From an uncultured Lachnospiraceae bacterium (lineage in GTDB: Bacteria; Bacillota; Clostridia; Lachnospirales; Lachnospiraceae), in contig CALWLN010000070.1 in NCBI GenBank assembly GCA_944381535.1, positions 20,266-84,265 of the forward strand: DNA of 64,000 nucleotides. Reading direction: 5' to 3'. The translations under genes and the position numbers were made by a program. Below are positions 15,487-40,776 of this stretch, piece after piece. The notes below the pieces were generated by a model. The model had not been told where the DNA came from. It worked only from the letters and a program-made list of their open reading frames with translations, and ran no database searches. Each line of letters starts with the position of its first letter. Position 1 is the stretch's first letter.

Positions 15487-15843
15487 CTATTTTTTCATTT
15501 TCGGCTGAAACACCAGGCTGGCCAGATAACCGAAAATCAAAGCCGCGCTGATTCCCACCGCGCTGGCCGTAAAGCCTCCCATGAAAATGCCCAGAAAGCC
15601 GTCGCTGTCCACCGCCTTCTGCACGCCCTTCCACAGCACATTACCAAAGCCCAAAAGAGGTACCGAGGCGCCGGCCCCCGCAAAATTCTGGAAGGGCTCA
15701 TAGATCTGTACCGCACCCAGTATTGCGCCCCCACAGACCAGAAGCACCATGATCCGTCCCGGCATTAGTTTTGTCTTTTCCATCAGAATCTGCACCAGCG
15801 CGCAGATCAGCCCCCCTACCCAAAAGGCATTCACATAATCCAT
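15487..15843 (-). CDS. spoVAE: Stage V sporulation protein AE
   Basis: A 118-aa membrane protein with about three hydrophobic segments and the SpoVAE signatures PFQNFAGAGASVPLLGFG and FMGGFTASAVGISAAL. It is part of the SpoVA channel that moves dipicolinic acid into the forespore and out at germination. It follows spoVAD by 15 bp. It is separated by about 24 kb from spoVAA-AB-AC, which normally lie directly upstream in the same operon. Confidence 0.92.
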   Translation of the reverse strand: MDYVNAFWVGGLICALVQILMEKTKLMPGRIMVLLVCGGAILGAVQIYEPFQNFAGAGASVPLLGFGNVLWKGVQKAVDSDGFLGIFMGGFTASAVGISAALIFGYLASLVFQPKMKK

Positions 15844-15858
15844 CCAATTACTCCTTTC

Positions 15859-16926
15859 TTACCCATGCTCTATCACCACGCCGTGGGCAATTCCCGGCAC
15901 CGTCTGTCCCTCGTTAAAGCTTACCGTGGACAACAGCGCCCCCGTAGGCACGAAGAGAATTCTCCGATAGGCTCCTTTTTCCACCTGGGGCAGAATATGA
16001 GCGCTTAAGGTCACCGCCGAGCAGCCGCAGCCGCTGCCTCCGGCGTGGGTATCCTGGGCCTGTCTGTCATAAATCTCAATACCGCAGTCCATATGCTCCG
16101 ATGTGATATCGAAACCCTTTTCCTTCAGCAGTTTTATCAAAATCTCCTGTCCCACATACCCCAGGTCCCCGGTCACGATCTTATCGTAATCCTGGGGACC
16201 ACGCCCGAAATCCAGAAAGTTCCGGTAAATGGTATCACAGGCTGCCGGAGCCATGGCGGCGCCCATATTCATGGAATCCTTCACGCCGTAATCCATCACT
16301 CTTCCTGTGGTGATGCCTGTAATCCGTGCCCCGCTTTTCTTTCCCGCTGCCGGACACGCCTCACTGTCCTTGTTCCCTGCCTCAGAGGCACCGGGGCGCT
16401 TGTGTCCCACCACAAAGGCTCCGCCTCCCGTCACCGTCCAACAGGCCGACAGAGGCCTCTGATTGGCGTACTCTAAGGGAAACCGGAACTGCTTCTCGGC
16501 ACTGGCAAAATGGCTGGAGGTCACCGCCAGCACCTGGTCCCCATATCCCGCCGCCACCGTCATAGCCGCCAGAGACAGGGATTCCCCGGCCGTGGAACAG
16601 GCTCCGTACAGGCCAAACAGAGGGATATTCAACTCCATCAGCCCAAACGTGGTGGCAATGGACTGTCCCAGCAGATCCCCGCCAAAAATATAGCGGATAT
16701 CTCCCTTCACCAGTCCCGCCTTCCCCATTGCCAGGGTGGCCGCCTCCTTCTGAAGGGTACTCTCCGCCTCCTCCCAGGTCTGCTCTCCAAACTGATCGTC
16801 CTTTCCCACCACATCAAATTTCTTTCCCAGGGGCCCTTCTCCCTCTTTCGTTCCCACAATACTGGCCGAACTTAAGATATAGGGCGCTTCCTCAAACTGT
16901 ATACTCTGGGTTCCCAACTGCGCCAT
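15859..16926 (-). CDS. spoVAD: Stage V sporulation protein AD
   Basis: A 355-aa thiolase-fold protein that binds dipicolinic acid at the spore inner membrane. It shows FGGDLLGQSIATTFG, the thiolase-like nucleophile region LYGACSTAGESL, and HAGGSGCGCSA toward the end. The length is slightly above the usual 335-340 aa because of a Lys/Gly/Ala-rich insertion near residues 175-200 (HKRPGASEAGNKDSEACP). It is the first gene of this unit, although spoVAC is the normal upstream neighbour. A clear sigma-G promoter could not be identified in the 94-bp gap. Confidence 0.93.
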   Translation of the reverse strand: MAQLGTQSIQFEEAPYILSSASIVGTKEGEGPLGKKFDVVGKDDQFGEQTWEEAESTLQKEAATLAMGKAGLVKGDIRYIFGGDLLGQSIATTFGLMELNIPLFGLYGACSTAGESLSLAAMTVAAGYGDQVLAVTSSHFASAEKQFRFPLEYANQRPLSACWTVTGGGAFVVGHKRPGASEAGNKDSEACPAAGKKSGARITGITTGRVMDYGVKDSMNMGAAMAPAACDTIYRNFLDFGRGPQDYDKIVTGDLGYVGQEILIKLLKEKGFDITSEHMDCGIEIYDRQAQDTHAGGSGCGCSAVTLSAHILPQVEKGAYRRILFVPTGALLSTVSFNEGQTVPGIAHGVVIEHG

Positions 16927-27780: not shown

Positions 27781-28614
27781 ATGAAGGATCCCAGGTTATA
27801 CGAGCACATTGTTTTAAGCGATAAGGAATTTCCCGCCCGGCTTTCGCAAAATCACATCGAGGACCGGAGGATTTTCTTTCCCTACCACTGGCACGAGCAT
27901 CTGGAGCTTCACTATGTCCTCCGGGGGGAGGGCTTTATCTTCTGCAACCGGGAGCAGTACCGCCTAAGCCCCGGCAGCCTGGTGATCGTCAACAGCAACG
28001 AACTCCACCAGGGCCAGTGCACCCAACCGGTTCTGGACACACTGGTGCTGATTTTCGATATGGATGATTTTTCCATGGAGACAGCCGGTCATCATCTGCT
28101 GTTTCAGCCGTTGATCCAGAGGGATGTGACCATCGGAAGCCTGTTTTTCTCCCTGTTTCAGGAAAATACCTGCCAGGAGCTGGGCTATAAGATTTCCATG
28201 AAGGGGAAGATCTACGATTTGATCGCCTATCTCATGCGCAATTATGTGGCGAAAAATCTGACGGAGCAGGAGAGCCGCCACCGCAGGAGAGATCTGGAGC
28301 GTTTAAATCAGGTGCTGGATTTTATGGAGACCAATTACCAGAATCCTGCCATCAATACAGAGGAGATGGCGGAGCTTATTAATTTGAGCCCCGGCCGTTT
28401 CGCCCACATTTTCAAGGACTTAACGGGCCAGAGCCCCGTTTCCTATCTGAACCAGCTGCGCTTAAAGAAAGCTCACACCCTGCTCAGGCAGGGGAATCTT
28501 ACCAGCACGGAAGTGGCTTTCTCCGTGGGATTTACGGATTACAACAACTTTGGCCGGCAGTTTCGGCGGCAGTATAAGATTGCGCCCTCCCAGGTGCCGC
28601 TGCAGGGGGAGTGA
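27781..28614 (+). CDS. AraC-family regulator with N-terminal cupin domain
   Basis: A 277-aa one-component sugar-responsive regulator. The cupin sensor is visible as FPYHWHEHLELHYVLRGEG and NSNELHQG. The C-terminal double helix-turn-helix runs from about 180 (NTEEMAELINLSPGRFAHIF, then SPVSYLNQLRLKKA and EVAFSVGFTDYNNFGRQFRR). ATG follows AAAGGAGG. Divergent from the two oxidoreductase genes, its likely targets. Confidence 0.9.
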   Translation: MKDPRLYEHIVLSDKEFPARLSQNHIEDRRIFFPYHWHEHLELHYVLRGEGFIFCNREQYRLSPGSLVIVNSNELHQGQCTQPVLDTLVLIFDMDDFSMETAGHHLLFQPLIQRDVTIGSLFFSLFQENTCQELGYKISMKGKIYDLIAYLMRNYVAKNLTEQESRHRRRDLERLNQVLDFMETNYQNPAINTEEMAELINLSPGRFAHIFKDLTGQSPVSYLNQLRLKKAHTLLRQGNLTSTEVAFSVGFTDYNNFGRQFRRQYKIAPSQVPLQGE

Positions 28615-28669
28615 GGGAGGCTACGAAGCGGTCAGATTCTCTGTAATCTGTTTAAAAGCATATTACCTC

Positions 28670-29804
28670 CTATAACCAGTTCAACACTTTTTCCTTTATT
28701 TTTGCGTACCATTCCTTCTCATCTTTTGATACCTTTGCCTGTTCCATAGAATACTCAAATATTCCTTTTACTTGTTCTGGATTTGGAACGTATCCTGCTC
28801 TATATGACTGTTCCACCATATGAATAAATACATCCAACTCCAACGGAACTATTACAGATTTTCCTCCATAAAACGCAATATTCATAGTATGCAATGCATA
28901 AAAATACGCAATACATGACTCATTTATTTTAGGTGCTATGAACAAACAAAATGCTTCTTTTCCGGTTTCCTTTTTTAATTTTGCAAGATGTCTTGATACT
29001 GGTTCTCCTTCCATTTCGTACTGCTTTTGTCCTGATTGCATCGTAACTTCAACTGCCAATCCAAAATCGCCATAGTCACATACTATATCTGCAATATTAC
29101 CTGCTGCTGTTGACATAGGTTGTCCTTTGTCGTCAAGTTTCAGATTTGCCTTAATATCTCCACCATCAAGCATATTCATAGCTCGCCAAGTATTCCATTC
29201 CAGCATAAGCGGCACATCATAAAACGCGTTTTTCTTAATATCATCAAAGACAGTCATTACATCTGCATAATCCTTATATTCTTTCAATGCTCTAATCTGT
29301 TCATTTACAATCGCTGTTTTCTTTGTAGCGATAACATTTTCAAGAATATCTTTCAATTTTTCTGTTGTTTCACCAGATAAGTCTCTGGTTATTCCAGACA
29401 CCTCTGCAACTTGTTTTAATAACCTTTCTCTATCATCTGAATACAACACAGGAAATGTCGTATCAAAAAGATACTCCTTATATCTCTACTTCCTCTGTTC
29501 TTTTCCCGCAAATCAATGTCTCACCTGGCTCTGTCAACTTAATAACTGGCTTTAAATCAACAAATCCAAGAGCCTTGGGTGCCCGATTGATTCTGTCTCT
29601 TGCGCTTAATGCCCTATCTTTGTCCGAGCCTTGTCCTTCAAAATCACTGCCTTCGGCCAATTTCTTTATAAAAGCGACCTGCGTGTCTGTATTCCATATT
29701 TTCCCTTCAAAATTATTATGTAAAACCTCTATCTCCGGAATCATCTTTAACGGAGAACGAGGTGATGTTGTGAAAAAAAGTGTCTTGCTTTTTAAATATG
29801 CCAT
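28670..29804 (-). pseudogene. AlwI-family type II restriction endonuclease, broken
   Basis: Two parts of one gene. The N-terminal piece (29478-29804, 108 aa, ATG with AGGAGG) has the family start FFTTSPRSPLKMIPEIEVL and the RDRIN and KLTEPGE segments. The C-terminal piece in another frame (28670 to about 29465) has the nuclease region GNIADIVCDYGD ... EVTMQSGQ and EPVSRHL, then CLFIAPKIN, as in AlwI and BspD6I. Relatives are roughly 600 aa. Here about 200 central residues are missing and the frame shifts near 29470, so an active enzyme is unlikely. AT-rich; next to a Dam-type methylase that would have protected the genome. Confidence 0.85.
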
Positions 29805-29885
29805 TTGATGTCCTCCTAGCAAACCATACTTTATATGGCCAGACCGGATACTGCGGAACATTTTATGTGTCTTATGAATATTGTG

Positions 29886-30737
29886 CTAATAATTCGTCAC
29901 TATAATATGTTTTGCATCTGCTTTAAAACGGTTTCTGATGTTAACTGCATAAGACTTTTCATATTCTTCAACAATATTCGCCCCATACAACTCTTCTGTT
30001 AATGGAGTTTTTCCAATAACTAAAAGGGCTTTACATGACAAATTCATAAAGTCATTTGCTAATCTTCTATGCTCTTCCTCTCCAAAACCATTTTTATATG
30101 CTTCATTTCCATAATCACTAAAAATACAATCGTATGGCGGATCCAAAAAGACAAAGTCATCTGTCTGAGCCATATTAAATATTTCTGAATAGTCACAATT
30201 ATATATATCTGTACGTCTTAATAGTTTATAATGCTCATCCGTAATTAACTTTGTATTCAAATTCTTGTATCTGCCAAACGGAACATTAAATTCACCATTG
30301 GTATTATATCTTATCATTCCTGAATATGCCGTTTTATTAATAAAAAAATAAATTACCGAATCCAAATACTCCGGCTCTGTCTTCTTATTAAACATATCTC
30401 TTATATTATAGTACAATTCTTCATTTTTATTCTCTATTCTTTCTTCTGGATGTTGTCTTTTTTGTTCTTCGTATTCCTTTTGATTGTTCTCATATATTTT
30501 CTGCAGCTCATCAAGCTGAATTCTAGCTTTGGGATAATCTTCCTTCATTTCTTGATAAAATAAATATAATTTTCTATTTACATCATTAATGATTGCTCTG
30601 TCTGGCTCCAGAAAAAAGTACAGTGCGCCACCACCAAAAAAGGGCTCGATATATCTATTATATTCGGATGGCATATTACTCACAAAATGAGATACTTCCT
30701 TAGACTTACCACCTCTATACTTAATCATTGGATTCAT
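29886..30737 (-). CDS. Dam/D12-class adenine-N6 DNA methyltransferase
   Basis: A 283-aa intact methylase. SAM-binding motif X YRGGKSK at the start, motif I EPFFGGGALYF and catalytic motif IV DPPYDC. The alpha-class order and size match Dam-type enzymes. It sits just upstream of the broken AlwI-family nuclease on the same strand. AlwI itself recognises GGATC, so a target overlapping GATC is plausible, but the specificity of this protein is not readable. Confidence 0.88.
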   Translation of the reverse strand: MNPMIKYRGGKSKEVSHFVSNMPSEYNRYIEPFFGGGALYFFLEPDRAIINDVNRKLYLFYQEMKEDYPKARIQLDELQKIYENNQKEYEEQKRQHPEERIENKNEELYYNIRDMFNKKTEPEYLDSVIYFFINKTAYSGMIRYNTNGEFNVPFGRYKNLNTKLITDEHYKLLRRTDIYNCDYSEIFNMAQTDDFVFLDPPYDCIFSDYGNEAYKNGFGEEEHRRLANDFMNLSCKALLVIGKTPLTEELYGANIVEEYEKSYAVNIRNRFKADAKHIIVTNY

Positions 30738-30824
30738 CGCAATCCTCCCTTACACTTATGCAGCTAACCCCGTTTTCCCGGCATCTCTAATGTTGATAAA
30801 TATTCCGTATCGTGCTTTCTTATA

Positions 30825-30944
30825 CTACCTACTATTATATTCATTTATCTGAACAAATGCAAGTACTTTTTGCAAACATTTGTTCTTGTCATAAATTGTA
30901 TCTGCTTCATACTGTTGAAGCATTTGCTCTATCATATTGTTCAT
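30825..30944 (-). pseudogene. AbiEii-type toxin, N-terminal remnant
   Basis: A 39-codon frame starting six bases after the AbiEi stop. It begins MNNMIEQMLQQYEA, the typical opening of AbiEii nucleotidyltransferase toxins, then ends at TAG. The rest of the toxin (normally over 250 aa) is absent, since the methylase gene's upstream region begins almost at once. GTGAGGTG in the antitoxin's end is the ribosome site. A true small gene is possible, but a truncated toxin is likelier. Confidence 0.6.
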
Positions 30945-30947
30945 AGG

Positions 30948-31523
30948 TCACCTCACTAGCTTTTGCAGCATTTTCAAATTTGTGCAGTGATATAGTTTAC
31001 TTAATTCCAGTAAATCTTCACGATTCAGTTTTCCAAATTCCGTCTCATCTACTCGTAAATCCTCAAACAATAAGCTGCGTAACTCCTTTTTATTTCTGAC
31101 GGGAGATATGCTATATAGCTTGTCACACAGTGCTTTTTCCGGTGTTGCTATCTGATATGCATAACTCCCCTCCTTTACCAATTGAATTCCCAACGGATAT
31201 GCCTCTGAAGGTATATCTCTATAGGTAAAGGTTCCAAATGGAGTAACATATTTCTTTGTTTTCTTCTTTTCAAATGTCGCTGATGTAAATACATATACCG
31301 CTTCCGGTATCAGACCGTAGCGCGAAAGCGCAAAATCAAAAGACAAATAGGATGGACCATAGATACTCCCCGCCAATAAATACCCCGGAGTTGTCTTCTC
31401 TGTCTCATAAAGTCCCTTCACCACCGGGATACATAAATTATCTTTTACCATTCTGGCCAATTTATTAGCCGGTGCACTGTAATCAGCCAATTCTTCCATC
31501 AGCATTGCATACGTTTTTATCAT
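30948..31523 (-). CDS. AbiEi-family antitoxin (orphan)
   Basis: A 191-aa protein of the type IV AbiEi antitoxin family. Winged-helix start (LMEELADYSAPANKLARMV), then the conserved GSIYGPSYLSFDFALSRYGLIPE region and TPEKALCDKLY. It normally represses and neutralises a co-transcribed AbiEii nucleotidyltransferase, but here only 39 codons of toxin remain. The gene appears intact, with no frameshift. AT-rich relative to the flanks, indicating acquisition. Confidence 0.82.
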   Translation of the reverse strand: MIKTYAMLMEELADYSAPANKLARMVKDNLCIPVVKGLYETEKTTPGYLLAGSIYGPSYLSFDFALSRYGLIPEAVYVFTSATFEKKKTKKYVTPFGTFTYRDIPSEAYPLGIQLVKEGSYAYQIATPEKALCDKLYSISPVRNKKELRSLLFEDLRVDETEFGKLNREDLLELSKLYHCTNLKMLQKLVR

Positions 31524-34731: not shown

Positions 34732-35332
34732 CTACTTCAAATACTGCTCCAATTCCTCAACCAGTTCATATACACGTGTTGCCGGAACCATTGCAGCCAT
34801 GCTGCTCTCTCCTGCCTCCAAAAATTCTTCATACATTTTTCTGGCACGTCGTTTTGCAGCTTCTAATGAGCCCTTGTCCATCATGATACTCTTGGAAATG
34901 AAGCAAAAACCACAATTCTATACTCTCATTAGACCAAGCGACCGCCATCTTAGGGGCTGTTCTTGCTTCTGCTTCAAACTGGGTATTATCAAAATTATCC
35001 AACGGAAAATCATCTTTATCAAACACAAGCCAAAACTTTTTAAAATGTTCCCACTGGCCGTTAGCAATCATCTTGTCCACAAACCGAATTAATCCCTGCG
35101 TATTTCTTGCGGTTCCATATACTTGTATGTGCGGCTCTTTGGTGATATGTTTATATTTTTCATTAATTTTAGCTGCAAAGCCTTTCAAATATAAAGGTTC
35201 TGTCTTTATTCCTTCACTTACAATCATTGTATATGGTGGAAGTTTATTCATAGTATCCATTCTGCTAGCTTTCACTTTCATTTTCTCTTTCAGCTTCTGT
35301 ATATCACTATGCTTTTTAGGTTTTAAGCTCAA
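34732..35332 (-). pseudogene. RloB-family protein, frameshifted
   Basis: The start is TTG at 35330-35332, overlapping the RloA stop and preceded by GGGAGG. The first part keeps RloB features: VSEGIKTEPLYLKGF, WLVFDKDDF and AWSNESIELWFLLHF. Soon after, the frame ends abnormally (IRSCKTTCQKNV), while another frame continues with a normal RloB-like tail (AAKRRARKMYEEF, PATRVYELVEELEQYLK) to a stop at 34732. About 40 residues between the two parts also seem missing. Probably inactive. Confidence 0.75.
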
Positions 35333-36585
35333 TCGACTACCTCCCAATTTTTAAGCTGTCTTAAATAAGGATCGGCGCCATAACGACCTTCCAGATACTG
35401 CTTGTTATAATTTTCATCATTACGCGGCCTGCTTCCACCTTCCTTACGAAAATCTACCAACGAATATAAAACGGACTCGTCATAACCATTAATCGCTGAA
35501 AACCAAATCTCATCTCTTCTAAATACCTCCTTACACATAGTCGTAAGGTCATGAGACGTAAACAGCAACTGCGCAGTTCCTCTATTAATTTCCTTATCAG
35601 TAAATAGCTCAATTATTTTTCGTAGAAGCAATGGATGAAGCTTTGCATCCAATTCATCAATCAAGAATAAACTGTTTTGGTCGATTCCCTTTAAAATAGC
35701 GGGAATGATACTGATAATCTTTCTGGTTCCACTAGACTCTTCTGAAAGACAAAGTCTTCTTTCTTCTCCATTACTCAGCTTATGAGTTGTGTAAACTTCA
35801 TTAACAGATCCATCCTCCTTGTATTCAATTTCTATATCGCAGATATCAATTCCCATAGACTGAATGACATTGCAAATTCTATCTTTATCTTTTTCTATCT
35901 GCTTTACCAAAATTCCCCGATCTAAATTTGGTTTATCAAAATTCATTACTCTGGTTTGCATAAAAAAGCTCATTGCTCTGTCAATCACTTCAAGATTTTT
36001 AAACATGGATATATAGGATAAAAGAGGCAGACTCTCATTCATATTTTCAATATCCAGTCCCTCCAAATCATCACACAGATACACGCCTTCCACATCTCGC
36101 TCAAATAGCACTTCTATACTGTCTTCTGTCTCAAGATAGAGATTTTCTTCCAGAATCGATTCATTATAGCAAGAGATTTCATAACGGTATTTAAACGCAT
36201 CCACCTGAAACAATATGCTATAATTTGTCGGCTTTTCTTTACTCTCTTCATCCCACTTATAAAAAGTTGATGTGATATGTTTATCAGTCAAGCCATCTTG
36301 CAACTGCGCAATCGTAGTTTCTCCTAACTGCTCATTCTTTTTCTTCATATACGCCAGCTGTATAATTGGCTCGATTACAATATTCCGCAATGAATGTAGT
36401 GCCATCAAAACACTGCTCTTACCGCCTCCATTAGGGCCATAAATTGCGCAAACCGGCAACAATTTCACACCGCCCTTAGCATGAATCAGCGACTTTTCAA
36501 ATTCATGGATTGGCTTAGCTGTAAAATCAATAGTCGCCTCATTCTTATAGGAACGAAAATTATGAAATTTAAATTCATAAATCAT
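35329..36585 (-). CDS. RloA-like AAA ATPase (AAA15/OLD-related)
   Basis: A 418-aa ATPase. Walker A YGPNGGGKSS near residue 45, the ABC-like signature SEESSGTRK, Walker B LFLIDELDAKLHP and the switch His in FTSHD. RloA and RloB are found together at restriction and defence loci; the molecular action of this pair is not settled. The ATG at 36585 has GGAGG upstream. It is intact, although its RloB partner is broken. AT-rich composition indicates recent acquisition. Confidence 0.82.
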   Translation of the reverse strand: MIYEFKFHNFRSYKNEATIDFTAKPIHEFEKSLIHAKGGVKLLPVCAIYGPNGGGKSSVLMALHSLRNIVIEPIIQLAYMKKKNEQLGETTIAQLQDGLTDKHITSTFYKWDEESKEKPTNYSILFQVDAFKYRYEISCYNESILEENLYLETEDSIEVLFERDVEGVYLCDDLEGLDIENMNESLPLLSYISMFKNLEVIDRAMSFFMQTRVMNFDKPNLDRGILVKQIEKDKDRICNVIQSMGIDICDIEIEYKEDGSVNEVYTTHKLSNGEERRLCLSEESSGTRKIISIIPAILKGIDQNSLFLIDELDAKLHPLLLRKIIELFTDKEINRGTAQLLFTSHDLTTMCKEVFRRDEIWFSAINGYDESVLYSLVDFRKEGGSRPRNDENYNKQYLEGRYGADPYLRQLKNWEVVD

Positions 36586-36751
36586 GTCTTTACCTCCGTG
36601 AGATTTTTTCTCATAGATAATATATATCATAAAAGTTAAAAATTCACAAGCATCTGCGAGAAAATTTCTCACCAATTTCACCGCAAAACAATTTATATAA
36701 AGAGTTCCGCTTGTGGAACTCGCGCACCAAGTTTCTCCTGTCCGGAAGGCT

Positions 36752-36790: not shown

Positions 36791-36809
36791 GAGCGGCTCG
36801 CGCCGCTCT
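36786..36809 (-). terminator. Strong rho-independent terminator
   Basis: On the minus strand AGAGCGGC - GCGA - GCCGCTCT is followed by TTTTT. It begins at the stop codon of the 78-aa gene, marking the original end of the spoVAA-AB-AC unit. Confidence 0.8.
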
Positions 36810-37044
36810 ATCCCTGCCATTTTCCGATTTTGTTTACCAGTTCCTCCATCTCCGCTTTGGAACTCACCCGGCCCGCTCTCTGAAGCCAGCTTCTCCGTTC
36901 TTCTTCTCCCATGCTGCTATAGTGCCCCATTGCCTGTTCATTCATTGCCAGGCTCAGCCCGAAGCCAATGGGCACATTCTCTGCTCCCTCGCCGATGTTT
37001 GGCTGGTTATATCCATTTTTCTGTTCCATCTTTTTCATCTCCAT
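36808..37044 (-). CDS. 78-aa small protein, formerly downstream of spoVAC
   Basis: A small soluble protein (MEMKKMEQKNGYNQPNIGEG ...) with a Gly/Asn-rich start and a helical end (EEERRSWLQRAGRVSSKAEM). Three near ATGs are possible; the third (37028) has GGAG in front. It lies 64 bp after the stranded 3' end of spoVAC and ends at a strong terminator, so before the insertion it was probably the last gene of the spoVA transcript. I do not recognise a family. If now cut off from the spoVA promoter, it may be silent. Confidence 0.6.
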   Translation of the reverse strand: MEMKKMEQKNGYNQPNIGEGAENVPIGFGLSLAMNEQAMGHYSSMGEEERRSWLQRAGRVSSKAEMEELVNKIGKWQG

Positions 37045-37107: not shown

Positions 37108-37242
37108 CTAAAACCATCCAAAGCTTTTCCCGATCCAATACCCCAGTCCCAGCAGCCAGCTTGTGAAAATCCCGTACAGGATCACCGGCCCCGCAATTGT
37201 AAAAATTTTACAGCCAATCCCGAAGACCTGGCCTTCCGCTTG
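37108..37242 (-). pseudogene. spoVAC: Stranded original 3' end of spoVAC
   Basis: Read on the minus strand from CAA at 37242, 44 codons and a TAG are open. They begin QAEGQVFGIGCKIFTIAG and continue PVILYGIF, TSWLLGLGYW. This aligns residue for residue with the end of the complete spoVAC at 40285-40422, but the DNA is GC-richer and clearly diverged. No start codon precedes it. It is the native tail displaced by the 3.2-kb insertion. Confidence 0.85.
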
Positions 37243-37375
37243 TGTCAAGTAAACACTAAAAAATTTTATTTTCTCTACTGATCAAGATTGTTCTTAAAAT
37301 ATCCTTTACCAATCCATACGCTTTTAATTTCCTCTCCTCACGGATTATTCTAAATTATAACCAAAAAAACCATTT

Positions 37376-37555
37376 CTATTCAGATGGATGGCAGATCTCT
37401 GCCAGGCTTTTTGCTTTGATATATTCTGACACTGCTACACCCATCAACTCACAGGCGGATTCCACACTGCCAACCTTTTTAGCCGCATTTTCAACATGTG
37501 TTACTATTAGCTTGGCTTTCTCTTTTTCCACGTATTCTTTAATTATCTGACACAT
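37376..37555 (-). CDS. 59-aa hypothetical protein, possible C-terminal fragment
   Basis: A short helical protein (MCQIIKEYVEKEKAKLIVTH ...) with a hydrophilic middle and VESACELMGVAVSEYIKAK. It resembles the C-terminal tails of Rpn/transposase-like nuclease proteins common in Lachnospiraceae, so it may be a leftover fragment. No domain can be named with confidence. A GGAGAG-like site precedes the ATG. The 37556-37732 stretch downstream of its upstream neighbour holds no gene. Confidence 0.4.
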   Translation of the reverse strand: MCQIIKEYVEKEKAKLIVTHVENAAKKVGSVESACELMGVAVSEYIKAKSLAEICHPSE

Positions 37556-37732
37556 AGCTCTCTCCTTCCTTCTCTCGCTTAAAATAGCTTACTCTGTCCG
37601 CCAGCTTTAAGAACAGGTCAGACCTGGTAAGGTATACCATATATAAATTAGGTATTTCTCTGAAATTTGTTCCCGATTCCGTAACATTTGCCACATTGCA
37701 GCCGGTATAAAACCGAGCACGTATGCAAAATG

Positions 37733-38252
37733 TTATGTATTTTCCAGCTTATCCGTCAGATATTTTACTTTTTGATACGCATCCTGCTTTATACGCATCT
37801 CTTCCTCGCCATCTTCAATATTTAAAAATGCTACAATATCTACCGGTCCTGCATGCTCTACAGATGCAAATTTTTCTTTCAATTTCTTACACATTTCCTG
37901 TATAAGCTCTTTTTCTCTATAAGGGAACCACACCTTGGACAGATACCGTTTTCACAAATGTAAAATACTTTTCCGCATGTCTGCGATATCCATTTTGCTG
38001 TAGCAATCTCTTAATCGTTTTATAACTTTCAGCCTTTTTGATCTGCAGTTGATTTAGTAACACATCCACATCAATCGATCCAATATGTTCTTTCCCAGGA
38101 TATAGCAGTGACGGGACCCAGCCACCTATTATCCTGATATTTTCTGAAAATTCATTGAGTAGATTCACAATATCCCCCAAGATCATATAGGCAGCTTCCT
38201 TCTGCCCCTGTGAATAATCAATCACCTGCTTTAAGTTTTCATCTTTTATCAT
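37733..38252 (-). pseudogene. AbiEii-type nucleotidyltransferase, internally deleted
   Basis: The start (ATG 38252, GGGAGA upstream) lies within the end of the AbiEi gene. The first 110 codons carry the nucleotidyltransferase core (RIIGGWVPSLLYPGKEH followed by GSIDVDVLL). The frame then breaks near 37925, and a second frame (37733-37933) supplies a C-terminal piece (REKELIQEMCKKLKEKF, IVAFLNI). Relatives have about 280 residues, so most of the middle is missing. Inactive toxin likely. Confidence 0.72.
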
Positions 38253-39327
38253 TATCGTCTCCCAAATCAAATTCTTTCAGTATGATTGCAGCCGCCGCTT
38301 CTTCCCCTCTCCCACCTCCTGTCAGAAGATCAATTACCGTTTGAACCGGAGAAGTCACAACATCCCCATTGATTTTATTCGGAAACATGCAAGGTGTTTC
38401 ATCATGAGGAATTGTAATTATCACATTACCGCCAGATGCCACCTGTTTCAAGTTTAAGTCCGCAATAAATTCTTCAAAATCCTGCTGTTCCACATATACA
38501 TGAACTTTATTATATCGCACTACCGGAGCATATCTGACTGCTGCGGAGAAAGACCCTAATACAGCACTTGCGCCATGTTTATCATTCCATTTTGCTATGG
38601 CCGACTCTATTTCCGGGATGCTATCAAGCGAATAATACTCAAATAATCGAGAATCTTTTTTCTGGTAATCCTTTGCCCAATCATACAGCATTTCTCTTAC
38701 ATTGCATACTCTGAATCCCCCTGGAAGTTCTTCTATCCATGCATGATCCAACAAGAAACTTTTTACATTTGAAACAGTTCCTATTGCTTTTCCCGTTATG
38801 TTCGACAATTCTTTCACCTGCCAGGTTTTTTGGTAATCATCCAGGATAGTACGCATTATCACAGATGCTGCTGAAGCACTTTTAGAAAAATAATTTTTCT
38901 TTGTTCTCAATTCTACATATTTATTTTGTTTACCGGTAATATAAATCATGATACGTTTTGTCAGTATATAACAATTTCCTGACAAATCCATATATCCATA
39001 TTTTTTTTCACGCATAGCCTCTGCAGAAGCCTCTGAAATATATGGTGCCATAAACATATAAAAAGAACCATCAACATGCTGCGATGCCATCAGCATAAAC
39101 TTATTAACAAAACGTCTTTCACCTCTCGGCTCTACTTCGATACAAAATTTAATTGTTTCTTCATTATCCGCAAAATAAATAACGGCATGAAAATCTCCAA
39201 AACCTCGCTGTAAACCTGTTGATATAATCTCTATATCTGATACAAATGGTACCTCTTTAAGTATCTGACAAAACTTTTCCTTCGCAAGCTGTACATATTG
39301 TTTTTCCGTGTAATTTAGTTTCATCAT
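38239..39327 (-). CDS. AbiEi-type antitoxin / winged-helix regulator (long form)
   Basis: A 362-aa protein. An N-terminal nuclease-like fold (FGDFHAVIYFADN, CIEVEPRGERR) is followed by a winged helix near 165-215 (WQVKELSNITGKAIGTVSNV, KSFLLDHAWIEE). A C-terminal segment ends with DLLTGGGRGEEAAAAI, typical of the long AbiEi-type proteins paired with a nucleotidyltransferase. ATG 39327 has AGAGGTG upstream. Overlaps its broken toxin partner by 14 bp. Carried by the element in spoVAC. Confidence 0.75.
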   Translation of the reverse strand: MMKLNYTEKQYVQLAKEKFCQILKEVPFVSDIEIISTGLQRGFGDFHAVIYFADNEETIKFCIEVEPRGERRFVNKFMLMASQHVDGSFYMFMAPYISEASAEAMREKKYGYMDLSGNCYILTKRIMIYITGKQNKYVELRTKKNYFSKSASAASVIMRTILDDYQKTWQVKELSNITGKAIGTVSNVKSFLLDHAWIEELPGGFRVCNVREMLYDWAKDYQKKDSRLFEYYSLDSIPEIESAIAKWNDKHGASAVLGSFSAAVRYAPVVRYNKVHVYVEQQDFEEFIADLNLKQVASGGNVIITIPHDETPCMFPNKINGDVVTSPVQTVIDLLTGGGRGEEAAAAIILKEFDLGDDNDKR

Positions 39328-39424
39328 TTCACCTCTTTTCACCTTATCGGTGAAACCATTATATTCGCTGAATCGCCAATTGTCAATATATTTGAGAGAT
39401 TTATATAATGTCCATTTTACGGTT

Positions 39425-40120
39425 TTATGCAATTATAATCCGTTCCATCATTCCATATTCATCCACATATACACAATCCACATATTGTATTGCCAATTTT
39501 CTTGTCAGTCCATCTGCCGTCTGCACCTCCTCAGCAAACACATGATTCTTTAACCACTTAAAAACACTGTCATCCAATTCGTTCACCGAAACCTTATGCG
39601 GTGTACATCCACCCTTTCTCTTGTTCGTCCCGCACATGTAATAACAGTATTTCCGGCCTCTGGATGAGGTCGACCTCTCGACCATCAGGCTGCCACATTC
39701 CGCGCACCTTGCAATTCCAATCAACGGACTGATTTCTATTTTTCCATCTGTAACTCTCGTATTGATCGTTAACATTTTTTGAGCGATTGCGAACTCTCGT
39801 TTCGATATCACTCTATATGTTTCACTCACATAAACTTCATTTTGTAGGATTTTCTTCACTTCTGCCATAGACCATTTCACTTCTGTTTCTTTCTTATACT
39901 TTGCCCTATACGTTACATTCTGTTGATTTACATATTCCGTTATCTGGCCCAAACTCCTTCCGCTGATACAAAGTTGAAATATCTTTCGTACTAAATCGAT
40001 ATGTTTTTTGTACGGACGCAACACTGTTGATTTCTCTACATGCTGCATAAAGCCAAGCGGCGTCACTTCCCGAATTTCATATGCTTCATCAATATCGTGT
40101 GTTCTCCACTTCTCTGACAT
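39425..40120 (-). pseudogene. Large serine recombinase, C-terminal part only
   Basis: A 231-aa frame holding the Recombinase domain (LVRKIFQLCISGRSLGQITE, then KILQNEVY) and the zinc ribbon (IARCAECGSLMVERS ... YYMCGTNKRKGGC). The N-terminal resolvase domain with the catalytic Ser is absent. Only 164 bp separate it from the spoVAC tail, too little to encode it. The coiled-coil C-terminus is also short. It is probably the remnant of the integrase that inserted the element. Confidence 0.8.
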
Positions 40121-40173
40121 TTCATCTTTCCCCCTTTTATTATCAGTGAATATCTCTAGGTATCTTTTTATAT

Positions 40174-40205
40174 AAAAAAGTGAGCATCCTTACAACGCCC
40201 ACTTT
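40174..40205 (-). terminator. Terminator downstream of the rebuilt spoVAC
   Basis: On the minus strand AAAGTGGGC pairs with GCTCACTTT, followed by TTTT and more A/T. It lies 80 bp after the spoVAC stop and is carried by the element, so it cuts transcription off from the genes formerly downstream. Confidence 0.7.
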
Positions 40206-40284
40206 AGTAGCTCTTATCTCCATAAACATCTATTTTTTTAATCTGACTGCATTTCACCCCTTTTTGAGTCCATTTTGCTCTGTT

Positions 40285-40776
40285 TTAACCAACAATTCCC
40301 ATTAATTTTAACACCCAATAAATCAGTCCTAGCACCCAACTGCTGAATATTCCGTACAAAATCACCGGTCCTGCTATTGTAAATATCTTGCAGCCTATTC
40401 CAAAAATTTGCCCCTCTTTTTGGAACTCGATAGCCGGGGCTGCCACCGAGTTGGCAAAACCGGTGATGGGCACCAGCGCCCCGGCGCCGCCCCAGTTGGC
40501 CACCGAGGGGTAAAGGTTCATGCCCGTCAGCAGAACGCTGAAAAGCACCAGCAGCATGCTGGTCCAGGAGCCTGCCGTCTCTTTGTCCAGGCCCATGTTA
40601 CCGGCTACATTCAATATAACCTGCCCCAGACAGCAGATAGCTCCCCCTACCAGAAAAGCCTTTAACATATTGGCCCACAGGGAGTGGGTGGGCGTCACCT
40701 GCTTTACATAATCGTTGTAGTCCTGCTGTTGTCTCTCTTTATCTTCCTTTGTTGTGGTTTCTCTGGTTAATCTCAT
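40285..40776 (-). CDS. spoVAC: Stage V sporulation protein AC, chimeric 3' end
   Basis: A 163-aa membrane protein of the dipicolinic acid channel, thought to be the mechanosensitive component. About four hydrophobic segments; GGAICCLGQV, SVANWGGAGALVPITGFANS and GQIFGIGCKIFTIAGPVILY are seen. ATG 40776 has AGAGGAG upstream. The DNA is native up to about codon 118 and AT-rich after that, because the last 45 codons came with the inserted element. The frame is uninterrupted, so the protein should work. Confidence 0.92.
   Translation of the reverse strand: MRLTRETTTKEDKERQQQDYNDYVKQVTPTHSLWANMLKAFLVGGAICCLGQVILNVAGNMGLDKETAGSWTSMLLVLFSVLLTGMNLYPSVANWGGAGALVPITGFANSVAAPAIEFQKEGQIFGIGCKIFTIAGPVILYGIFSSWVLGLIYWVLKLMGIVG

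Follow-up and report, generated by a model that had tools for sequence, protein, structure and literature searches.

We analysed a 64,000-nucleotide stretch of DNA from the draft genome of an uncultured Lachnospiraceae bacterium (the window; genome G000), in which an inserted element occupies the 3' end of the spore gene spoVAC. On the minus strand, two spoVA genes, by position probably spoVAA and spoVAB, are followed by spoVAC, an insert of ~3.2 kb (37237-40416, mostly AT-rich), a detached spoVAC tail and an open reading frame (ORF) (Table 1). The spoVAC gene is a hybrid, with codons 1-120 native and codons 121-163 supplied by the element. The fused and detached tails lie on the same strand ~3.2 kb apart, have GC contents of 0.40 and 0.50 over 129 nt, respectively, and are identical at 86 of 129 nt. 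ORF and Pfam searches of the insert revealed no catalytic recombinase and no three adjacent genes with Resolvase and Recombinase domains, and the insert has no P' arm. With B and B' denoting the two halves of the spoVAC site and P the half-site of the element, the junction comparisons show what we read as a non-autonomous integrated cassette at spoVAC codon 121, in the order B/B'(foreign), cargo, P/B'(native).

Table 1 Features of the spoVAC cassette and its borders in the window
Feature	Position	Strand	Basis or remark
spoVAC, hybrid	40776-40285	-	163 aa; Pfam SpoVAC_SpoVAEB 4.2e-45
Left-junction crossover dinucleotide GA (hybrid B/B')	40415-40416	-	Junction comparison
Hairpin, intrinsic-terminator-like, after supplied tail	40177-40205	-	12 pairs, 4 GC, then T run
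Catalysis-free serine recombinase relative	39425-40120	-	231 aa; Recombinase and Zn ribbon; domain search, relatives
AbiEi-like gene (PF09952), open	38239-39432	-	Probable ATG start near 39327
AbiEii-like gene, broken	37733-38270	-	ORFs 37917-38270 and 37733-37933
Element half-site P, ending TTTACTTGACACAAGCG before GA	37237-37265	-	Related half-sites in 21 other genomes
Right-junction crossover dinucleotide GA (P/B')	37235-37236	-	Junction comparison
Detached native spoVAC 3' end, 42 codons and stop	37108-37236	-	Glu codon at 37236, stop ends 37108
Native ORF, 78 aa, after detached tail	36808-37044	-	Directly follows uninterrupted spoVAC in G002

Empty sites and the crossover dinucleotide

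Five genomes of the same genus (G001-G005) all carried spoVAC uninterrupted across the site. In the closest relative, G002, the native tail is fused to the gene and the small ORF comes next, and the 240 nt ahead of the junction agree with the window at 204 positions. The fused tail of G002 is identical to the detached tail of the window at 115 of 129 nt and to its fused tail at 86 of 129, which marks the detached tail as native and the fused tail as foreign. No second spoVAC tail was found in the five same-genus genomes with a query that detects that of the window (tail query: G001 and G002). The first-pass annotation of this DNA had described an element that uses spoVAC as a fixed attachment site and brings a substitute tail, and had expected relatives to hold an uninterrupted gene directly continued by the detached tail; both expectations were borne out, with the join at codon 121, a P half-site beside it and the site recurring in other genomes. 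Neither of the two observations it named as telling against itself was made: element-free relatives showed no duplicated tail with that query, and the AT-rich tail proved not to be the native one.

The crossover was located by comparison with three elements that split spoVAC in other genomes (G278, G417 and G418). Codons 119-121 read Gln/Lys-Lys-Glu in the five same-genus genomes and Gln-Ala-Glu in the detached copy; since all relatives have Lys before Glu, the codons ahead of Glu in the detached copy belong to the element. At neighbouring places the two junctions of the window have CAA, GA, GG and CA in common, while the step common to both junctions of the split elements is GGA (G278), GA (G417) and AGA (G418). 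GA alone is common to all four elements, placing the crossover at positions 1 and 2 of codon Glu121 and providing the short core common to both junctions that a large serine integrase site requires. The CAA (TTG) identity two codons earlier, which had been put forward as the junction core, lies outside the crossover and was rejected. Around GA, the P and P' arms of the split elements, paired across contigs in all three, form imperfect inverted repeats (14, 13 and 15 of 26 positions in G278, G417 and G418), a symmetry matched or beaten by 57, 159 and 22 of 20,000 shuffles of P'.

Within the insert, the first-pass annotation had seen an AbiE-type pair. AbiEi stands as an open gene, but the AbiEii-like reading frame is interrupted, leaving separate ORFs; the latter label is assumed from the position beside AbiEi, as there is no Pfam match. 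Neither PADLOC nor NCBIfam gave a match to the AbiE ORFs. A perfect sigma-70 consensus promoter (TTGACA-17-TATAAT, 39386-39358, minus strand) lies ahead of the AbiEi-like gene; promoter-like sites overall are no commoner in the stretch than in shuffles. Terminator-like sites number 6 in the stretch and 2.1 ± 1.4 in shuffles.

Recurrence of the site and two forms of element

We scanned 397 genomes of the family for spoVAC tails without requiring the half-site. Full-length spoVAC protein matches, which include the SpoVAEB paralogue, were found in 256 genomes and tail matches in 249. More than one tail occurred in four genomes: G000 (2), G115 (5), G179 (3) and G185 (2). A renewed search of 16 genomes, chosen by match count or low score, added G278, whose spoVAC is split over two contigs. 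All six near-full-length extra tails (one in the window, two each in G115 and G179, one in G278) begin at the same codon and have the half-site in front, which argues against chance; this count omits the second G185 tail and a pair of short tail fragments in G115. G185 was rejected as a further case, because an assembly overlap between two contig ends presents a single tail sequence twice. Low or split spoVAC scores were also obtained for G042, G089, G153 and G209, and the regions in G042, G089 and G209 were searched for the tail motif only.

The sequence ahead of the six extra tails follows (C/T)T(A/G)ACA-N6-GA. A pattern made from it, minus the first base, was scanned against one genome per species (84,980 species) and matched 37 places, 22 of which were spoVAC tails; these came from 21 genomes whose titles name Lachnospiraceae or other Clostridia. 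One of these cases (L029 in G402) is decayed and keeps the first tail codons only. Two of three matches in a virus database were likewise real spoVAC tails; the other 15 genome matches and one virus match were not spoVAC and were discarded as noise. With the window, 22 genomes (one decayed) and two virus-database contigs thus carry a P-type half-site followed by a tail starting at codon 121. The spoVAC gene is complete in 16 of these genomes and split at the site in three, and three show the tail only; wherever both lie on one contig (11 of 11 genomes), the tail is downstream of spoVAC on the same strand. It should be noted that the pattern presupposes half-site and start, so the fixed start rests on the family scan, and that it undercounts, missing some array copies with variant sequence, such as TTGACT in G419.

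Two P/tail copies in G179 lie 40 kb apart (L016 1592 and L014 2227, both minus strand), with chromosomal-looking genes of nucleoside and flavoprotein metabolism between them; the two copies either bound a very large cassette or were parted by a later rearrangement. SpoVAC-like sequence (39-71% identity) is also present in eight human faecal contigs recorded without annotation as 'Bacteriophage sp.' (MT835844.1 and seven others), six of which cover at least 80% of the protein.

As read from the assembled junctions, the site is occupied in two forms: elements with three adjacent large serine recombinases (triplets) split spoVAC and supply no tail, and cassettes free of a catalytic recombinase bring a tail. 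Directly beside P/tail, both virus contigs (L025 and L027) carry complete triplets. Those of G416 and G418 run off the contig within the third gene, and that of G278 has its middle gene divided between two ORFs and its third gene read in part. Pfam scanning covered part of the triplet genes. These full recombinases adjoin P, at the end opposite to that holding the recombinase relative of the window. At the split junctions (G278, G417 and G418), spoVAC runs past codon 120 into element sequence and stops there, and the elements have an ordinary P' half, an imperfect inverted repeat of P. G417 has the same P type and a split spoVAC; no recombinases were seen in it. Behind P', G418 carries genes for DUF6100, DUF5697 and DUF5348 proteins, and L027 carries a PemK-like gene and a chromate transporter gene behind its recombinases. 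The tail-supplying form is represented by the window and by ten further genomes in which a single contig spans both ends; no catalytic serine recombinase lies between the junctions (in G179 the search covered the first unit only). The first-pass annotation had proposed looking elsewhere for spoVAC junctions with a full recombinase; such junctions exist in the triplets, but these belong to a second class of element, with no tail in the three readable cases.

Queried with an outer recombinase of G418 (E ≤ 1e-60), 11 of the 21 P/tail genomes gave no match, including G000 and G417. These are drafts, and one of them has a split spoVAC, so the absence of a recombinase is weak evidence.

Cassettes also stand in tandem. 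G115 has two in a row and two tail fragments further on, with three tails near-identical (125-126 of 129 nt); G415 has three cassettes, and G419 has three tails on one contig. In the G419 array, an 18.7-kb unit holds ORFs (L076 3124-9164, minus strand) that by eye resemble a nested Tn916-type element, with tyrosine integrase-like and replication-like genes. The cargo, whose ORFs were scanned in part, is varied. It includes the Gabija genes GajA and GajB (G409); a GajA/GajB-like pair recognised by ORF starts alone, with RmrA, PDC-S02 and a caspase-like gene (G415); an Avs1b-like protein, a partner with a metallo-beta-lactamase fold (best PADLOC match LmuA) and then Avs1a (G405); a Zeta-like and an SLFN_AlbA_2 protein (G115); and AbiE in the window. 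Other cargo comprises a glycoside hydrolase (G408), Bro-N proteins (G408 and G410), a DUF2971 protein (G406) and regulator and kinase-like genes (G179), and a 311-aa protein (G407) and a 358-aa protein (G419) had no Pfam match. The last gene before P in five cassettes (G405, G406, G409, G411 and the second of G415) encodes a protein of 494-517 aa with KFDSYKEDNRREVK, whose G409 copy, the sole one scanned, matched SLFN_AlbA_2; this protein may be part of the cassette machinery. The P ends of these five cassettes are at L065, L066, L069, L071 and L072.

A recombinase relative with no catalytic domain

The recombinase relative of the window consists of Recombinase and zinc-ribbon domains and has no resolvase domain. 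Open relatives of 224-229 aa were found in G409 (one), G415 (two) and G419 (three), and decayed ones in G413, G415 and G419. Six of the seven open genes, including that of the window, start 143-205 bp behind a spoVAC stop, so that five in other genomes (one in G409, two each in G415 and G419) stand behind replacement tails; the seventh, 241 bp away from the end of its contig, shows no tail. The proteins also have no counterpart of the long insert of the triplet proteins, presumably the coiled coil of serine integrases, and they keep four invariant cysteines. Ratios of nonsynonymous to synonymous substitution (dN/dS) were 0.11-0.31 in the 11 of 15 pairs with computable dS; dS exceeded 1.7, near saturation, in five of these, and the six close pairs gave 0.15-0.27.

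By score, the closest protein to each of six compared was the internal recombinase of a triplet (24-28% identity). In the tree, the catalysis-free proteins form one clade (100/100), which groups weakly with the internal recombinases (91/85, on an open branch that drew a long-branch warning). They are probably derived from the internal recombinase, to judge from these similarities. At E ≤ 1e-25, with at most seven candidates scored per genome, only the window's own genome among the 397 of the family sample matched; at E ≤ 1e-15, seven of the 22 site-bearing genomes did, and the matches in G115 and G405 are full-length recombinases. The cassettes of most other genomes have no catalysis-free protein. 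The window protein had no match among viral contigs; in a phage collection it matched 56 records, the 20 listed being 23-30% identical. A structure predicted from two sequences had a mean predicted local distance difference test score (pLDDT) of 52.7, too low for a fold search.

This gene had been taken for the remnant of the element's own integrase. In that case the locus would be a single decayed element (an integrative mobilizable element or a prophage) that lost most of its serine integrase, with the tail as part of attP. A serine recombinase relative without its catalytic part beside the junction fits such decay, and integrase genes often adjoin a junction. We nevertheless regard it as unlikely: the same form of 224-231 aa is open behind tails in three other genomes, with the low dN/dS given above, only 164 bp separate the spoVAC stop from the start of the gene in the window, leaving no room for a lost domain, and the full recombinases known at the site occupy the opposite end, beside P. 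Being open, conserved, low in dN/dS and placed behind tails, the gene is, on comparison of its copies, a maintained gene of one cassette group and not debris. We propose that its product is an accessory protein or a blocker that would bind the att site.

Proposed movement of the cassettes and known systems

We consider it probable that spoVAC cassettes integrate by recombination of P/B' with B/B', with triplet recombinases as helpers in trans and a tail that keeps the gene whole. Movement itself is something we infer from the junctions. A circle bearing P/B' would insert at B/B' to give spoVAC with the tail of the circle, then the cargo, then P/B'(native). The B' of the cassette is the last 43 codons of a foreign spoVAC with a terminator-like hairpin, and P lies at the other end. 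Triplet recombinases would move cassettes in trans through the same P type and core, and are the likely enzymes because they adjoin the same kind of P and core elsewhere. As B/B' would be regenerated and remain a usable attB, the next cassette could insert again, and cassettes would stack. The supplied tail would let a cassette occupy a spore gene while the host could still form spores; that it keeps sporulation, as first supposed, is plausible. The catalysis-free recombinase beside B' would bind att DNA and either recruit the enzymes of the triplets or block them. The G000 draft yielded no relative of the triplets (outer type, E ≤ 1e-60), so the cassette of the window is probably stranded there. 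spoVAC is a forespore gene in Bacillus subtilis; excision from it would be inherited.

A broader proposal, to which we give even chances, is a family-wide cassette chromosome of small cassettes, several of them carrying defence genes, with an att-borne target end, carriage by triplet elements that would by themselves break the gene and, in part of the cassettes, a domesticated recombinase that controls the site by recruitment or immunity. On this view, inheritance of any excision from a forespore gene would select for elements that mend spoVAC and do not leave it.

It is very improbable that the spoVAC 3' end was duplicated through homologous recombination or by gene conversion, with no site-specific recombination. 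Such a duplication would suit the three near-identical tails of G115 and the AbiE homology with G002, as a regional exchange, but the same start codon recurs in many genomes behind a common half-site that is not spoVAC, and the two tails of the window differ strongly. Least probable is an element of the skin or gin type that intervenes in a gene and is removed in sporulation, since spoVAC in the window is already complete and excision needless, no catalytic recombinase is present, and excision from a forespore gene would be inherited, unlike that of skin. A resemblance exists for the split-spoVAC elements, which like gin of Bacillus cereus combine a split spore gene, three serine recombinases and no phage genes (PMC5595907).

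Several observations weigh against integration of tail-bearing cassettes by triplet enzymes. Neither excision nor a circle nor helper activity was seen, and P/B' with B/B' departs from the canonical pairing of single serine integrases (PMC3783163); for CcrAB, joining of att pairs outside the canonical set is reported (PMC5595907), and the proposed reaction would be of that sort. The P half-sites vary among groups. The two junctions of each split element (G278, G417 and G418) lie on different contigs and their pairing is inferred, most of the genomes are, by their titles, draft metagenome-assembled genomes, and a decayed copy of the recombinase relative in G415 (contig C152) stands within 5.5 kb of sequence in which no spoVAC tail was seen. 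Furthermore, G002 carries an AbiE stretch of 1225 nt, 90.9% identical to that of the window, just downstream of its uninterrupted spoVAC and beyond the native tail; the other flanking matches of the two genomes are 78.7-84.7% identical. Downstream of spoVAC in G002 we found six TTRACA-like words, none ahead of a spoVAC tail, and no P/tail near AbiE. The AbiE cargo was therefore not delivered by this cassette alone; on these alignments, homology exchange must have contributed, and AbiE must have sat in the same hotspot in another frame.

The region downstream of spoVAC in this genus looks like a defence hotspot, because G002 holds other genes at the place where the window has an AT-rich pair encoding an AAA_21 ATPase and an RloB-like protein (34829-36681, minus strand), just behind the native tail and the small ORF. 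A further AT-rich stretch (28500-31500) contains, by eye, a DNA adenine methylase-like ORF (29886-30737) and an AbiEi-like ORF (30948-31523), the latter in part similar to G002 contig C118 6269-6531. Genes resembling spoVAEB and spoVAD (15487-16926, minus strand; by eye and from the paralogue match) lie ~23 kb from spoVAC, so that the spoVA genes are parted by the hotspot.

Triplet serine integrases, a spore-gene element with three recombinases and core-gene cassettes with large serine recombinases are already known. The closest parallel is with the staphylococcal and enterococcal cassette chromosomes (SCC/ECC; rlmH and CcrAB), in which, too, a single conserved core gene provides attB near its 3' end, the cargo varies, many islands have more than one attR and the recombinases are large serine recombinases (PMC6222049). 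Modular cargo, a preserved target frame and tandem stacking suggest a similar way of working, as far as sequence can tell and with the stacking seen in genomes other than that of the window. Here, however, the target is a spore gene, to which 43 codons are supplied, and not the 3' region of rlmH; where one contig holds both ends of a cassette, no catalytic recombinase is present, and the cassette of the window has neither ccrAB nor ccrC; the recombinases at the site come in threes, two outer proteins scoring 41-66 bits against CcrA/B/C models with cut-offs of 700-900; and some cassettes have a conserved catalysis-free recombinase.

The split-spoVAC elements share with streptococcal triplet integrative and conjugative elements the three large serine recombinases at one end, repeats of 2-8 bp and a disrupted gene; those elements target mutT, traG and hsdM, and the available text describes no target-repairing cassettes (PMC4701971). 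Like the split-spoVAC elements, gin in gerE is non-phage, has three serine recombinase genes and splits a sporulation gene, but its girC is apart from girAB and acts with GirX, and the gene is restored by excision, with no supplied tail (PMC5595907). Skin (sigK) and SPbeta (spsM) are also integrated in spore genes (PMC5025042, PMC4191935), which are restored by excision with no substitute tail, whereas spoVAC in the window is not split. In a gut survey, SpoVAC genes appear as island cargo, not as target (PMC6907783). The literature listings gave no report of spoVAC as an attachment site; nor did we find in them cassettes that preserve a gene split by sibling triplet elements, or the catalysis-free protein.

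These findings point to a conserved recombinase-derived protein with no catalytic domain and give exact junctions, with a GA core, for systems with three recombinases; how such recombinases divide their labour is, we believe, unsolved. They also show clearly that one site can be used in two ways, by splitting the gene or by carrying its end. Cassettes, several of which bear defence systems, dock repeatedly at a core spore gene in a family, identified from genome titles, that is common in the gut, and the spoVAC site is a hotspot in which to seek unknown defence systems.

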